Position numbers and translations under genes: made by a program
Shown here: one piece after another, positions 19,058 through 29,097 of the stretch
How positions within the stretch are numbered: position 1 is the first letter of the stretch
Layout of the letters: each line of letters starts with the position of its first letter
The notes under the pieces: generated by a model
Database searches by the model: none
The model's input: only the letters and a program-made list of their open reading frames with translations
Told to the model about the DNA's origin: nothing
Assembly (NCBI GenBank): GCA_016782865.1
Contig: JADHXR010000012.1
Span: 1-64,000 of the forward strand
Reading direction: 5' to 3'
Length of the DNA stretch: 64,000 nt
Origin: Phycisphaerae bacterium
GTDB taxonomy: Bacteria; Planctomycetota; Phycisphaerae; Sedimentisphaerales; Anaerobacaceae

Positions 19058-20380
19058 TTAAGTCCGCGCCGTTCCCTGGGGTTTGAACGCTTCGCGGATT
19101 TCCTTGTTAATCCTGACGCTGCACCAGGCCTTACCGCACATCGAGCAATAATCGGCCGACGACGATTCGCCGGCGTTGATTTCCCTGCAGACCTCGTCGT
19201 GCATCCTTTCGGCGGTTTGCGGATCGAGCGACTCGCCTAGATGAGTCTTCCAGTTCAAATCCGTCCGGGCGATGCTCAGTTTCCTGTCACGCTCGGCGGC
19301 GCCTTTTAAGCCGCGAGCAACATCGGCAGCATGGCCGGCGATCTTCGCCGCGATCACGCCGACCCGAACGTCATCGGCATTGGGAAGACCGAGATGCTCT
19401 CTCGGCGTGACATAGCACAGGAACGATGCGCCGTAAAACGCAGCGGCCGTTCCGCCGATCGCCGAGGTTATGTGGTCGTAGCCCGGAGCAATATCGGTCA
19501 CCAGCGGACCCAGCACGTAGAACGGGGCGCCGTGACAAATCTCCTGCTGGATTTCCATATTGTGCTGTATTTGGTCGAACGGAACATGGCCGGGTCCCTC
19601 AACCATGACCTGGCAGCCTCGTTCCTGCGCTCGTTGCGTAAGCTCTCCGAGGGTCCTTAGCTCCGCGATCTGCGCCTCGTCGGTGGCGTCCGCGATTGCG
19701 CCGGGCCGAAGGCCGTCGCCCAGAGAAAAACACACATCGTACTCGGCCAGAATGTCACACAAATCGTCGAACATCTCATACAAAGGATTCTGCTTGTTAT
19801 GGTAAAGCATCCACTTGGCCAACAGCGCTCCGCCCCGGCTGACGATGCCAGCCACGCGATTTTCGAGCAAAGGCAGATGCTCCTTCAGGACGCCCGCGTG
19901 AATCGTGAAAAAATCCACGCCCTGCCTGGCCTGCTTTTCGATTATCTTCAGGATGATCCCGCTGTCTATGTCCTCGACGCCTCGGTCCTCGATGATCTGG
20001 TAGATCGGCACCGTCCCGAAAGGAACCGGACACTGCGACAGCAACTGCTTGCGAATTTCGTCGAGGTTTCCCCCCGTGCTCAAATCCATAATCGCATCGG
20101 CGCCGGCGTCCAGGGCGGCCTGCATCTTTTCGAGTTCTCCCTCGACCGAACTGCGAACGTTGCTCGTACCGATATTGGCGTTGACCTTCGTGCTGAGCAC
20201 CCGTCCTATCCCGGCAGGCGCGAGATTAGTCTTCAGATGCAGCTTGTTGGCGGCAATCACCAACCGACCGGCGGCAAGCTCGTCGCGAATAATCTCGGCA
20301 TCAACATTCTCGGCATTGGCGACGAATCTAACCTCGTCGCTGACTGTCCCGCCTCGTGCAATATCTAATTGTGTAGCCAT
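19058..20380 (-). CDS. thiC: phosphomethylpyrimidine synthase (thiamine biosynthesis)
   Basis: Radical-SAM enzyme that rearranges aminoimidazole ribotide to hydroxymethylpyrimidine phosphate, the pyrimidine half of thiamine. The 440 residues match the usual length of the shorter ThiC type. Recognisable stretches are [72 protein letters not shown] and the iron-sulphur cluster motif CSMCGKAWC near the C-terminus. GAGGAAC lies upstream of the ATG. The gene is preceded by a TPP riboswitch and a terminator-like hairpin, so it should be switched off when thiamine pyrophosphate is abundant. No other thiamine genes are in the window. Confidence 0.97.
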
Positions 20381-20609: not shown

Positions 20610-20651
20610 CAAATCTGGCGATCCTCAATTCATAGACATTAGCCAATCACT

Positions 20652-20747
20652 TTCCTACGCAGGCCTAGCCGCCTTCTCCGGCGACCGTCCTGATCAGGTT
20701 CAAAGGGTTGTTTCTCAGGCCCGGCTATTCGCGGGCCACCCCTAGCG
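20652..20747 (-). promoter_or_regulatory. TPP (THI-box) riboswitch controlling thiC
   Basis: The minus strand shows the conserved TPP aptamer blocks in order: GGGGTG, then CTGAGA, then ACCCTTTGAACCTGATC, with a GCGTAGG closing segment. The aptamer lies between the end of the FAD-dependent oxidoreductase gene and thiC, on the thiC strand, with a terminator hairpin following. TPP binding would favour termination before thiC. Confidence 0.95.
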
Positions 20748-20757
20748 AACGCTCTCA

Positions 20758-22801: not shown

Positions 22802-23578
22802 ATGGGGACCATGAAAAAGACGAGAGCCTTCACTCTCATAGAGCTTCTGGTAGTCATCGCTATCATCGCACTGTTGCTCGCGATCCTGATGCCGGGCCTC
22901 CGCCAAGCTAAAGAACTGGCCAGAGAGGTAGTCTGTAAGAGCCATCTACAGCAATGGGCTATCTGCATGGAGATGTACACCTCCGAGTACGACGGCAAGT
23001 TCATGCCCGGCATTGACGAGGACTGGGCCACGGGTCAATACTCCTGGATATATACCCTGATTCCATATTACAACGACACGGACATCCGCCTCTGCCCCAA
23101 GGCCAAACGCACCGTCGAGCAGGGCGGCACGCTACCCTACTCCGCGTGGGATGTCAGCAAGACCAATCCCGACTCTTTTTCGCTACTCATCGAGCCGACG
23201 TTCAAGATCGGCAGCTACGGTATCAACTGGTGGGTCAACGACAGCGATCTGGTCAACGGCAACCACGACGTTAAGAACAAATGGCGACGCACCGGCCAGA
23301 AGATGCCCGGCGAGATTCCCGTCCTGATGGACTGCGGCTTCATGCTCGCCCGGCCAGAGCCCTCGGACCCGGCGCCGGCCAACGACGGAGAATTCCTCTG
23401 GGCCTTCGGCGGCGGCATGAGGCGCGTCTGCACGAGCCGCCACACGGGCGAAGTCAACATACTTTTCATGGACTTGGCCACGCGCAAGATACGCCTGAAG
23501 CAACTATGGCGCCTCAAGTGGCACCGCACGTTTACTGCGGCCGAACCTCAATGGCCCCAGTGGATAGAGAGGCTGTAG
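22802..23578 (+). CDS. pseudopilin-like protein with prepilin N-terminal methylation motif
   Basis: GAGGAGG lies five bases before the ATG. The 258-residue protein begins MGTMKKTRAFTLIELLVVIA, a type IV prepilin/pseudopilin leader with the cleavage-site-plus-Glu5 pattern (A-FTLIE) and a single N-terminal helix. The body is the globular domain that is common in planctomycete prepilin-like proteins (CKSHLQQWAICMEMYTSEYDG, FPxxDxxLCPKA-like LCPKAKRT) and ends with a variant DG-type tail (NILFMDLATRKIRL, with DL in place of DG). Such proteins are highly multiplied in these genomes; most are thought to be secreted or surface-displayed by a type II-like system. It shares an intergenic promoter region with the FAD-dependent oxidoreductase. 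Confidence 0.85.
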   Translation: MGTMKKTRAFTLIELLVVIAIIALLLAILMPGLRQAKELAREVVCKSHLQQWAICMEMYTSEYDGKFMPGIDEDWATGQYSWIYTLIPYYNDTDIRLCPKAKRTVEQGGTLPYSAWDVSKTNPDSFSLLIEPTFKIGSYGINWWVNDSDLVNGNHDVKNKWRRTGQKMPGEIPVLMDCGFMLARPEPSDPAPANDGEFLWAFGGGMRRVCTSRHTGEVNILFMDLATRKIRLKQLWRLKWHRTFTAAEPQWPQWIERL

Positions 23579-25072: not shown

Positions 25073-25101
25073 TTGACATGAGAACACTTTTGTGATATAA
25101 G
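25073..25101 (+). promoter_or_regulatory. strong sigma-70-type promoter of the pseudopilin-Hint gene
   Basis: A perfect TTGACA (25073-25078), a 17-base spacer and TATAAG (25096-25101). Transcription would start near 25108, leaving an untranslated leader of about 520 bases before the ATG at 25631. Confidence 0.7.
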
Positions 25102-25129
25102 CGTAGTTAGCTGTAGGTAGGTTCGCGGC

Positions 25130-25420
25130 TATTTATATCTTGAGTCGTTATCATATTTGTTCGTCATATCATATCTTGACCGCACCTGCCTGATGAGACG
25201 TTCTTTTTCAGTTTGGCCTATACTTTAGTCGAGGGTTGCTTTGCGCAAACGATTTGCGCCGTCATGGGAAAGACCGACGAGAGTAGGCAGGTCTGAAAAG
25301 CCTATCATAATTCAAGTTGTCATCATATTTGCCTGTCGTTTCATATCTTCGACCTGCCTGTCACAGATTTGATTCGGCCTTTGCGGCCTGCGGCGCGCAG
25401 ATTGCGCGGAGTCTCTCAGG
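25130..25420 (+). ncRNA. candidate structured leader RNA made of two diverged tandem copies
   Basis: The leader holds two related segments. Both have CATATTTG (25152 and 25324), then a TCATATCTT block, then a CTGCCTG block, then a GGCCT segment, then a hairpin: GCGCAAA-CGA-TTTGCGC at 25243-25259 in the first, CGCGCA-GAT-TGCGCG at 25394-25408 in the second. The two hairpins keep pairing and a three-base loop with different bases, as expected for a conserved RNA structure. I do not recognise it as a known riboswitch class. It precedes the pseudopilin-Hint gene. Confidence 0.45.
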
Positions 25421-25630
25421 ATTCTGAGCTGGTTTGAACCGACCGTTTTTGAGCGAAGAAAGTAGAACAATGGAGATTCGCCAAGAAGCGGCGTTGAGTT
25501 AGTTTTGGCAGGGACTTTTTTGATGCGATCCTGGTAGTCTATTTGCACTTATCTTTATCGAAGCGATTGAAAAAACGTGCTCACAAACGGTCGGCCAAGC
25601 GAATCTCCGAAGGCATTAAGGAGAAAGAAA

Positions 25631-26917
25631 ATGAAACGCAAAGGTTTTACATTGGTCGAGCTGCTGGTCGTGATTGCGATCATAGCTCTGTTGATGGGCA
25701 TTCTGATGCCCGCCCTGTCCAGGGTCAGGCAGATCGCCTTTCGGATGGTCTGCGGGACGAACCTCTCGGGGATCGGCAAGGCGATGCTTATCTACAGCAA
25801 CGATTACGACGATGAGTTGCCGCGTTCCGGCGGTCGAAACAGCCCGTGGGCTCCGAAAATACCCAACTGGCAGGCGACGAATCGATACGGCGCCTACGGA
25901 GTATTGGCCAACGGTGAAGGCGGGGTGGGAAGTATCTCGTCCTGCTTTTACCTGCTGGTAAAGTACGCCGAGGTGACGCCCAAATCGTTTCTCTGCAAGG
26001 GCGATACCGGGACCAGCGAGTTCAAGCCTGGCAATTATGGTGCGGGCGCCAGGGATTTAATGGACTTGTGGGATTTTGGTCCGGAGCCGAAAGAGCATTG
26101 CAGCTACGCCTATCACATGCCTTTCGGACGGTACGCTCTGACCACGTCGGGCGAGCCCGGCATGGCGGTGGCGGCGGACAGAAACCCATTCACTGTGTCT
26201 CCAATGGCCGAGCCCAAGGATATAAGTTTGTTCGTGCCTGAGGGCGGCAGAGAGGCTATTAAGTTCGGCAATGCCAATCAGCACCAGGAAGACGGGCAGA
26301 ACGTGCTGTTCCTGGACAGCCACGTGAGTTTTGAGAAGACTCCGTACTGCGGCATCAACGATGATAACATTTACACCTACTGGGACGGCGGCGACATCCG
26401 ACGTGGCAGCGTGCCTATCCTTACGAGTGAGCCCCAGTCCAGAACGGATTCAATGGTGGTACATGATGCTGAAGGCGGACCTGACGAGCCGAAAGGCAGG
26501 ACTTGTTTTGTTGCTGATACCGGTGTCTGGGTAGACGGGGCGCTCGTGCAGATCTCAGAAGTTGCGCCAGGACAAACGGTCGGCAAGCTTCTCTGTGCGG
26601 CCCAGACAGCCCCTCTGGAGCAGATTGAGAAGGTCCAGGAACACAAAGGGACGTTCGAATGTCGCGACATTTTGCTCGAAAGCGGAAATCGCATCAGTGT
26701 TGTGGATGCACACCGCTTCATGCTCGATTCCGGAAGGTGGATCGCAGCACAGGATTTGCGAAGTGGCCTCAGATTGAAAACACTGACCGGCACTATCGGC
26801 ATCAAGAGCGTCGCGGTGAGAACGGCACCTTATACCGGTAAGGTCTACAATCTTAAGGTCACCAACAGCGAGCAGTATTTAGTGGGTAAAGATGGGGCAA
26901 TTGTACGTGATTGGTGA
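25631..26917 (+). CDS. pseudopilin-like protein with C-terminal Hint (hedgehog/intein-type) domain
   Basis: AAGGAG lies seven bases before the ATG. The 428-residue protein begins with a prepilin leader (MKRKGFTLVELLVVIAIIAL) and a pseudopilin body with the usual ending (NVLFLDSHVSFEKTPYCG). After a short linker, residues 292-428 form a Hint domain: Cys292 in GRTCFVADTGVWVDG, a block-B-like His in VVDAHRFM, WIAAQDLRSGLRL, and a last strand VYNLKVTNSEQYLVGKDG. Inteins end in His-Asn; this one ends VRDW, so C-terminal splicing chemistry is not expected, but N-terminal acyl shift at Cys292 could still cleave the protein or join it to a nucleophile, as in hedgehog proteins. It has its own promoter, long leader and terminator. 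The biological role is unknown. Confidence 0.85.
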   Translation: MKRKGFTLVELLVVIAIIALLMGILMPALSRVRQIAFRMVCGTNLSGIGKAMLIYSNDYDDELPRSGGRNSPWAPKIPNWQATNRYGAYGVLANGEGGVGSISSCFYLLVKYAEVTPKSFLCKGDTGTSEFKPGNYGAGARDLMDLWDFGPEPKEHCSYAYHMPFGRYALTTSGEPGMAVAADRNPFTVSPMAEPKDISLFVPEGGREAIKFGNANQHQEDGQNVLFLDSHVSFEKTPYCGINDDNIYTYWDGGDIRRGSVPILTSEPQSRTDSMVVHDAEGGPDEPKGRTCFVADTGVWVDGALVQISEVAPGQTVGKLLCAAQTAPLEQIEKVQEHKGTFECRDILLESGNRISVVDAHRFMLDSGRWIAAQDLRSGLRLKTLTGTIGIKSVAVRTAPYTGKVYNLKVTNSEQYLVGKDGAIVRDW

Positions 26918-26980: not shown

Positions 26981-27025
26981 GGCGGCCTTGTGGAATTGAG
27001 CGCAAGGCCGCCTGTTTAATTGATT
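26981..27025 (+). terminator. intrinsic terminator after the pseudopilin-Hint gene
   Basis: GGCGGCCTTG (26981-26990) pairs perfectly with CAAGGCCGCC (27003-27012), followed by TGTTTAATTGATT. Confidence 0.75.
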
Positions 27026-27123
27026 ATTGATTAATGATGATTGATCATTCAATGGAATGGCAGAATTTGTCTTTGGCCGTCATTTGTGTTAGACTACCCG
27101 CTTTGATTCTAAGGGGTACAATA

Positions 27124-29097
27124 TTGGGACAGCCACTTGTTTACAAAATACTCGGCTCGCATCTCGTTGAGGGCGAGATTGCGGCCGGCGAGCAGATTGG
27201 AATTCGGATCGACCAGACGCTTACGCAGGATGCCACGGGAACGACGGCGTTCCTGCTCTACGAATCGATGGGGGCCGCGACAGTCAAGACCGATTTGTCT
27301 GTCAGCTACATCGACCATAATATGGCGGGTTTCGGCCCTGAGAACCATAACGATCACTTGTACCTTCAGACGATCGCTGCCAGGTCGGGCGTCTATCATT
27401 CGCGGGCGGGCAACGGCATTTGCCATCAGGTCCATCTGGAGCGCTTCGGCAAACCCGGCGCTACACTATTGGGCAGCGATTCGCACACCCCCACCGGCGG
27501 TGGAATCGGCATGTTAGCCATCGGGGCCGGCGGAATGGACGTGGCGGTCGCTATGGCGGGCGGGCCCTTCTACCTGAAGTGTCCCAAGGTCCTGGGAGTA
27601 AAACTCACCGGCGAGCTCAACGATTGGGTGGCCGCCAAGGACGTTATTCTCAAGCTGCTGAGCATCCTGACAACCAAGGGCAATGTCGGCTGGGTCGTCG
27701 AGTACTTCGGCGACGGTGCAGAAAGGCTATCGGTACCACAGCGGGCGACGATAACGAATATGGGGGCCGAATTAGGCGTAACGACGAGTATCTTCGCCAG
27801 CGATGAGCAGACAAGACAATTCCTGGCCGCCCAGAGGCGGCAGCAAGACTATCAGCAATTGACAGCCGATTCTGACGCCGACTATGACCGCGTCATTGAG
27901 ATCGACCTGCCTGGACTTGAGCCGATGGCGGCCTGCCCGTCTTCGCCGGACAACGTCAAGACGGTCCGTGACATAGCCGGTATGGGGGCCGGCCAGGTGG
28001 TTGTAGGCAGTTGCACAAATTCGAGTTTTGCCGACTTGATGATGGTGGCCGGCGTTCTGAAAGGTCGGCGCATCAATAATATGATCGAGTTCGCAATCGC
28101 TCCGGGAAGCAGGGAAGTCTTGAACATGCTGGCCGAGAACAGGGCGTTGGCTGACATGATCTCTGCGGGCGCGAGGATTCTGGAATCGGGCTGCGGTCCC
28201 TGCATCGGACAGGGCTTTTCGCCCGCAGATGATGTGGTGACTCTGCGCACCTTCAATAGGAACTTTGCGGGGCGCACCGGGACAAAGGGTGATCGAGCCT
28301 TTCTGGTAAGCCCTGAGACAGCGGTCGCCTCAGCCCTGACCGGTCGGATTACGGACCCGCGCGACGTGCCGGAATTGTTTGGACTGCAATACCCCAAGGT
28401 AGAGATGCCGGGCGAATGTTACGTTGACGACAGCATGATCGAGCAGCCTTTGAGCGAAGAGGAGGCTGCGAAGGTAGAGATCCTGCGCGGGCCCACGATT
28501 GTTGTGCCTGAATCGCCGAGCCCACTGCCGCAGGGGTTGACAGGCAGAGTGCTGCTCAAATGCGGCGACAAGATAACCACAGATCACATCATGCCGGCGG
28601 GGACGTTTCTGAAACTTCGCTCGAATGTGCCAGAGTACGCCAAGGTGGTTTTCAATTGCTTCAGTGAAGAGGGCAGGCCAACATTTGCCGAGCGTGCACT
28701 CGCGCTAAAAGAGAGGGCTATAGGAGGTATCATCGTAGCGGGTGAAAGCTACGGCCAGGGTTCATCGAGAGAGCACGCGGCACTTTGCCCGATGTATCTC
28801 GGCGTCAGGGTGGTGATCGCAAAGAGCATCGAGCGAATCCATAAGGCGAATCTGATTAACTTCTGCATAGTTCCAATCGAATTTGCCGATCCGACCGACT
28901 ATGATAGGATCGAACCCGGCGACGAACTCCAGATCGATGGTTTGCTCGACGCGGTAAGGAGCAGCAAAACAGTCAAGGTTGCCAAGGCGGACGGCTCGCT
29001 CGAATTTGTCGGTAAGCTGGAACTTTCCGAAAGAGAAAGAGATATCTTGCTTTCAGCAGGGCTTTTGAATCGCACGCGAAGAACCGCTTTCAAGTGA
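27124..29097 (+). CDS. aconitate hydratase (aconitase family)
   Basis: Interconverts citrate and isocitrate through a [4Fe-4S] cluster in the TCA cycle. The likely start is the TTG at 27124, because AAGGGG lies seven bases upstream and the protein then begins with GQPLVYKILGSHLVEGE as family members do; an ATG start at 27034 would add 30 unlikely residues. The 657-residue product is the shorter aconitase type. Cluster cysteines lie in GSCTNSSF and GCGPCIGQG, and substrate residues in LGSDSHTPTGGG and GESYGQGSSREHAA are present. It is the first gene of a plus-strand series reaching hisD. It could in principle act on a related substrate such as homoaconitate, but aconitase is the simplest reading. 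Confidence 0.88.
   Translation: MGQPLVYKILGSHLVEGEIAAGEQIGIRIDQTLTQDATGTTAFLLYESMGAATVKTDLSVSYIDHNMAGFGPENHNDHLYLQTIAARSGVYHSRAGNGICHQVHLERFGKPGATLLGSDSHTPTGGGIGMLAIGAGGMDVAVAMAGGPFYLKCPKVLGVKLTGELNDWVAAKDVILKLLSILTTKGNVGWVVEYFGDGAERLSVPQRATITNMGAELGVTTSIFASDEQTRQFLAAQRRQQDYQQLTADSDADYDRVIEIDLPGLEPMAACPSSPDNVKTVRDIAGMGAGQVVVGSCTNSSFADLMMVAGVLKGRRINNMIEFAIAPGSREVLNMLAENRALADMISAGARILESGCGPCIGQGFSPADDVVTLRTFNRNFAGRTGTKGDRAFLVSPETAVASALTGRITDPRDVPELFGLQYPKVEMPGECYVDDSMIEQPLSEEEAAKVEILRGPTIVVPESPSPLPQGLTGRVLLKCGDKITTDHIMPAGTFLKLRSNVPEYAKVVFNCFSEEGRPTFAERALALKERAIGGIIVAGESYGQGSSREHAALCPMYLGVRVVIAKSIERIHKANLINFCIVPIEFADPTDYDRIEPGDELQIDGLLDAVRSSKTVKVAKADGSLEFVGKLELSERERDILLSAGLLNRTRRTAFK

Follow-up and report, generated by a model that had tools for sequence, protein, structure and literature searches.

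A pilin-gene leader of Sedimentisphaerales with tandem UCAUA units and a pseudoknot before the Shine-Dalgarno, a candidate regulatory RNA

In the leaders of the S4/alpha operon and of S15 ribosomal-protein messages, as in preQ1 and SAM-II, an H-type pseudoknot by the Shine-Dalgarno (SD) sequence controls initiation, and the ompA message of E. coli, which encodes a surface protein, starts with a stabiliser leader whose stem lies a few nucleotides from the 5′ end. The regulons of c-di-GMP riboswitches comprise pilins and surface adhesins, among them pilA1 in Clostridioides difficile, which is under a c-di-GMP-II riboswitch (PMC6366702). Here we describe the 520-base leader of a planctomycete pilin gene that, on comparative evidence, is a genuine folded RNA, absent from existing catalogues and present order-wide in mostly uncultured planctomycetes. 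Comparison among relatives establishes its structure, from which we infer its function and trigger: with a probability of roughly 55%, we read the leader as a structured cis-regulatory RNA that would act mainly on pilin translation via a putative trans-acting factor reading its 5′-terminal units. Its main structure is a 3′ pseudoknot, which the initial annotation of this DNA overlooked.

The leader lies in a 64,000-nucleotide stretch of DNA, the whole of which is called the window hereafter, and its features are all on the forward (+) strand. It precedes a gene (25631..26917, +) for a 428-aa pseudopilin (Pfam N_methyl, 33.5 bits) with a C-terminal Hint-like extension (PT-HINT, 21.5 bits, under the cutoff of 27.7), after which a terminator-like hairpin with a 12-bp stem and a T-rich tail is found (26981..27012, +). 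The leader had been assigned to a pseudopilin-Hint gene; the pilin part of that assignment holds and the Hint part does not, since several homologues of the leader stand before pilins without Hint, and a tie to the Hint domain was rejected. The repeated unit described below also occurs on other surface-protein genes. The Hint-like domain itself (26500-26917, C-terminus of P0001) is added past the end of an otherwise complete pilin, Hint-less homologues ending near ..DSLLVTD, and it terminates in VRDW without the usual terminal Asn, which makes hedgehog-like or N-side-only autoprocessing of the pilin conceivable. The next gene downstream is aconitase-like (27034-29097), likewise in two relatives (G034 and G087; L034 and L046).

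Reading the sequence upstream, we found a sigma-70-type promoter at 25073..25101 (+), composed of TTGACA (25073-25078), a 17-nt spacer, and TATAAG (25096-25101), that matches 11 of 12 consensus positions and has an extended TGA before the −10; a promoter scan had not listed it because the scan requires T at the last −10 position. Promoter matches of at least 9/12 precede 81 of 101 first-copy units in relatives, against 10.5 in shuffles, with the end of the −10 mostly 11-14 nt from the unit, whereas none of 22 second-copy units in relatives has such a match; several homologues with a single unit and without Hint carry a TTGACA-17-TAAAAT-type promoter directly 5′ of that unit. The promoter proposed more than 500 nt upstream of the gene in the initial annotation is thus both present and conserved, and transcription very probably starts far upstream, near 25108 and ~7 nt 5′ of the first unit, rather than close to 25631.

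Minimum-free-energy folding left the leader unremarkable against shuffles (z = −0.06) and Rfam 15 returned no match to it, so that comparison had to decide whether it is structured. The only Rfam 15 element in the window is an unrelated TPP riboswitch (20635-20753, −; 54.4 bits, at gathering score) 5′ of a ThiC-like ORF (19058-20380). Searching the leader with E up to 5 gave one sub-threshold chance match, upstream of the leader, and neither the leader nor six diverged homologues matched any family at gathering score, glycine, c-di-GMP-I/II, TPP, and preQ1 riboswitches included; the element is as unlike the glycine, c-di-GMP, and TPP riboswitches as had been supposed. The 224 motifs of Weinberg 2017 have reportedly been taken largely into Rfam, and the paper on them lay outside our literature search, which found no paper on this leader. 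We conclude that the leader is a new family of structured leader RNA.

At its 5′ end the leader carries two copies of a 75-nt unit, each closed by a stem, P1. In copy 1 (25115..25191, +), recognised also as a repeat, P1 pairs AGGTAGGT (25115-25122) with ACCTGCCT (25184-25191), and in copy 2 (25285..25359, +) it pairs AGGCAGGT (25285-25292) with ACCTGCCT (25352-25359). The copies are homologous, since a covariance model of the unit scores them 48.4 and 92.2 bits, respectively; the stretches 25143-25177 and 25315-25349, offset by 172 nt, are 80% identical, bearing out the earlier description of a long leader with a diverged tandem element about 172 bases apart. A DNA-pattern search for the repeat in genome contigs gave no match. 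Compared for the age of the duplication, identities were 0.73 between first copies, 0.72 between second copies, and 0.75 within a locus.

Comparison of homologous leaders, in line with the check that the initial annotation had named, revealed covariation in P1 and in both helices of the pseudoknot. For P1, an alignment fitted to the covariance model (A4) has double changes in seven of nine pairs, with a covariation score reached in 0 of 500 shuffles and low values in slid controls; in a small MAFFT alignment (A3) by itself the P1 covariation is not significant. P1 is the only helix that RNAalifold finds in the unit, and candidate helices inside it were rejected on that result. The interior is poor in G and holds, in place of other conserved pairing, near-invariant UCAUA-like motifs most often spaced by 18 nt, represented in copy 2 by TATCATAAT, ATCATATTT, and TTCATATC with 18-nt spacing.

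The conserved RNA structure that had been postulated for this leader exists, but in P1 and in the pseudoknot rather than in the two three-base-loop hairpins on which the postulate was based. Both hairpins are present, GCGCAAA-CGA-TTTGCGC at 25243-25259 (+), 3′ of unit copy 1, and CGCGCA-GAT-TGCGCG at 25394-25408; most homologues with two units keep the GCGC/GCGC core of the first, only the 3′ half of the second (ATTGCGCGGA) is conserved, and the apparent copy-to-copy covariation is not real evidence. Alignment of homologues led us to reject the hairpins as a conserved core for copy 2. Some relatives (e.g., L015, L016, L043) have an extra hairpin, GCCAAA..UUUGGC, right after the P1 of unit 1, which the window lacks and which in L043 carries CCTAA/TTAGG.

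A DNA search found the leader ~70% identical in other genera of the family, 5′ of the orthologous pseudopilin, in relatives that, where named, are Sedimentisphaerales/Phycisphaerae metagenome genomes. In the genome that the window comes from, the first covariance model of the unit (R1) has four matches, of which one is weak and three are strong: both copies in the window and a third ahead of another pilin gene. It detects the unit in 71 of the 89 genomes searched in the family; a second pseudopilin-like ORF in the window (22802-23578, +; FTLIELLVVIAIIALLLAILMPGL) has no match before it. A broader model (R2) gives five matches in the own genome and finds the unit in 85 of the 161 genomes searched in the order, nine of these in other families, while among 392 sampled phylum genomes it had no match outside the order at E ≤ 1e-4, which served as a specificity control. 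The unit is always in sense orientation and has few copies per genome. An automatic test placed 90 of 123 distinct units upstream of a pilin ORF; most of the remainder stand before genes whose secreted products show beta-helix, GLUG, RCC1, macroglobulin, PEP-CTERM, or similar features, and for a few the gene encodes a fused MFS/spermidine synthase-type membrane protein. Diverged versions are present in four complete genomes of the order (G039, G044, G048, G058), so the system may be testable in cultured relatives. Weak matches in two genomes of family f2 (L188, L197) are not before a pilin. Both genomes have the stretch TGGCGGGC..GCCCACCG ahead of a reading frame with CxxxCxxC that looks like a radical-SAM protein; the matches may be false positives or may mark a diverged unit on a different gene.

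The strongest covariation of the leader lies in the predicted 3′ pseudoknot. Two helices of the pilin leaders, A (16-17 bp) and B (10 bp), interlock there in the order A-B-A′-B′; in the window the 5′ strands are CCGACCGTTTTTGAGC (25439..25454, +) and GGAGATTCGC (25472..25481, +), and the 3′ strands GCTCACAAACGGTCGG (25579..25594, +) and GCGAATCTCC (25599..25608, +), the last ending 9 nt before the SD AAGGAG (25618..25623, +), which is conserved in homologues. Helix A, visible as an inverted repeat, has double changes in 14 of 17 pairs, and helix B, 93.5% paired, in 5 of 10, so that 19 of 27 pairs are double-changed in an alignment of 51 homologues made without structure information (A5), in which 89.6% of cells are paired, many as G-U; none of 500 shuffles reached these values, and slid controls were far lower. 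This alignment excludes 4 of the 55 leaders with located helices because their A′ strand is shifted out of register; a further 17 sequences, a few of them outside this pilin family, could not be placed by the block search. The end of helix B is 9-11 nt from the SD in 47 of the 55 homologues. The element is thus an SD-proximal, H-type arrangement with covariation in both helices. Under a phylogeny-aware null applied to all 1596 column pairs, a test of low power, none reached E < 1, and helix A pairs held the four top ranks.

A search by geometry and complementarity alone placed the window above all shuffles (0/200), with p = 0.003 in a second scoring, and gave a combined p = 3e-9 for 12 leaders of other families, some of which share ancestry and are not all independent. 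Pairing with different letters was verified by hand in families f2, f4, f6, and f7, e.g., GTGCTGCCTTTCGGC/GCCGAAGACAGCAC with GAGAGATTTGC/GCAAATCTCTC in L187, CATTGCTCTCC/GGAGAGCGATG with GAGATTTGCTC/GAGCAAATTTC in L184, and CATTCTCTG/CAGAGAATG with TGAGTCTGT/ACAGATTCA in L213; the pseudoknot of L213/L214 was missed by the search and found by eye. An alternative pairing of the B′ strand with the SD (UCUCC/GGAGA) is possible in the window, at −6.2 kcal/mol, but has a median of −2.8, against −17.8 for helix B, and SD sequestration by B′ as a conserved switch was rejected as unsupported by covariation, variants such as UCCC being compensated in B and not in the SD.

The leaders of secreted-protein genes that bear the unit have no pseudoknot and instead carry GUCAUAAUAUAUUUAUCAUA-like boxes directly before the SD. 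UCAUA-type motifs occur there 20 times against 2.5 expected, paralogues included, whereas in pilin leaders one was observed near the SD against 2.7 expected, which counts against the favoured reading given below, in which unit and pseudoknot would have to be coupled; the repeated motif of the unit recurs at the ribosome-binding site (RBS) of secreted-protein genes and not at that of pilin genes. A pattern scan of seven genomes yielded 13 boxes, with none for the reversed pattern; ten have a unit ~240 nt upstream, and the genes behind the other three likewise seem to encode secreted proteins. In L200, L202, and L206 a UCAUA box stands before the SD with no unit detected, and in the latter two it seems to follow another ORF, so the box may act independently of the unit.

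Two beta-helix secreted-protein genes (L044, L153) have an apparent truncated pilin leader in which helices A and B are represented by their 5′ strands alone. In L048 and L049, the gene of the fused MFS/spermidine synthase type is headed by the two units of a pilin leader and by a portion of the 3′ domain that lacks the B′ strand; to judge from its sequence, this is a captured, broken pseudoknot. The two-unit leader of L037 resembles these.

From this comparison, the 5′-terminal position of the unit, P1, the motif spacing, the pseudoknot, its distance to the SD, and the association with pilin and surface-protein genes are predicted with confidence, and from them we infer binding of a trans-acting factor to the unit, an effect on translation, and a role of the pseudoknot as a platform. 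The factor, probably an RNA-binding protein, would read the UCAUA arrays of the 5′-terminal units, of which this gene has two, and adjust the translation or lifetime of the message. On pilin messages, the pseudoknot, whose helix B would end near the 5′ edge of the bound 30S subunit, may act as a platform presenting or restricting the SD, a role that in secreted-protein genes would fall to the UCAUA boxes directly before it. Since these genes lack the pseudoknot and have UCAUA at the SD, translational control by a unit-recognising trans factor is favoured. We give about even odds to the wider picture of an order-specific, post-transcriptional regulon, in which one regulator, or one metabolite acting on a new riboswitch class, would read the 5′-terminal UCAUA units and coordinate the pilin with part of the surface proteome, the order-wide, sequence-plastic pseudoknot at its fixed distance from the pilin SD acting as a translational platform.

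It is possible but unlikely that the unit serves as the aptamer in a new class of riboswitch, present here in tandem and perhaps sensing a second messenger of surface life, with the pseudoknot as translational expression platform. This reading would account for a conserved, P1-closed module at the 5′ end with tandem copies, for covariation in a 5′-leader RNA, for the fixed distance from pseudoknot to SD, and for a regulon of pilin and surface proteins comparable to pilA1 and the adhesins under c-di-GMP-II control in C. difficile (PMC6366702), but the G-poor interior has no conserved pairing within P1, no constant expression platform follows the unit, and UCAUA motifs recur at RBSs without P1. 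With the motif at the start of the message and at the SD of sister genes, an aptamer fits less well than an RNA-binding protein. The repetition of UCAUA and its reappearance at RBSs likewise point to a trans-acting factor.

A little less plausible, in our judgement, is that the leader, rather than acting as a switch, constitutively stabilises the mRNA and enhances its translation, its 5′ stem blocking decay and its AU-rich loops attracting S1 or another chaperone. P1 lies ~7 nt from the presumed 5′ end, AU-rich sequence precedes the SD, and messages for surface proteins could need to be long-lived; a stabiliser would nevertheless hardly require near-invariant loop letters or so elaborate a pseudoknot. 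Very improbable is the idea that the units work at the DNA level, as operators for a transcription factor 3′ of the promoter: they do contain direct repeats and span roughly +7 to +85 relative to conserved promoters, but P1 and helices A and B keep their pairing, including G-U cells, and the second unit and the RBS box are 170-250 nt from the promoter and always in sense. An operator also fits poorly with a motif that stands both at the message start and at the SD of sister genes. An ordinary interspersed repeat or chance similarity, which the direct and inverted repeats visible in one sequence and the unremarkable folding energy might suggest, is already refuted by conservation at orthologous genes order-wide, with few copies per genome and none in the sampled phylum genomes outside the order.

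Catalogues contain hardly any structured RNAs from planctomycetes, and this leader is strongly supported by comparison, absent from Rfam, and attached to one pilin family across an order. The unit, a module common to surface-protein genes, suggests that these bacteria, for which metagenomes are the main source of knowledge, have a regulatory system of surface life. The pseudoknot, which keeps its shape and its distance to the SD with hardly any letters in common between families, offers a clean case for the action of a leader pseudoknot on the 30S subunit.

Like the S4/alpha operon, S15, preQ1, and SAM-II pseudoknots, the one described here is of the H type and adjoins the SD, but it has helices of 16 and 10 bp, a loop of 49-119 nt, an SD outside the helices, and no sequence relation to them (no Rfam match). 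With the ompA leader it shares a stem within a few nucleotides of the 5′ end of the message and an association with surface-protein genes, and differs in its near-invariant loop, tandem copies, and additional 3′ pseudoknot. The STAXI and pan motifs (Weinberg 2010, PMC2864571) are further structured RNAs of bacteria that occur in tandem, their function being unknown or suspected to be protein binding; they differ in structure and gene neighbourhood, STAXI being a short repeated pseudoknot near DNA-manipulation genes. As with c-di-GMP-II in Clostridioides difficile (pilA1 and surface adhesins), a leader RNA is found on a major pilin and on surface proteins, where it would regulate from the 5′ UTR; unlike c-di-GMP-II, it matches neither c-di-GMP class in Rfam, has no conserved intrinsic terminator that we noticed, and combines a P1 enclosing unpaired UCAUA repeats with a pseudoknot at the SD.
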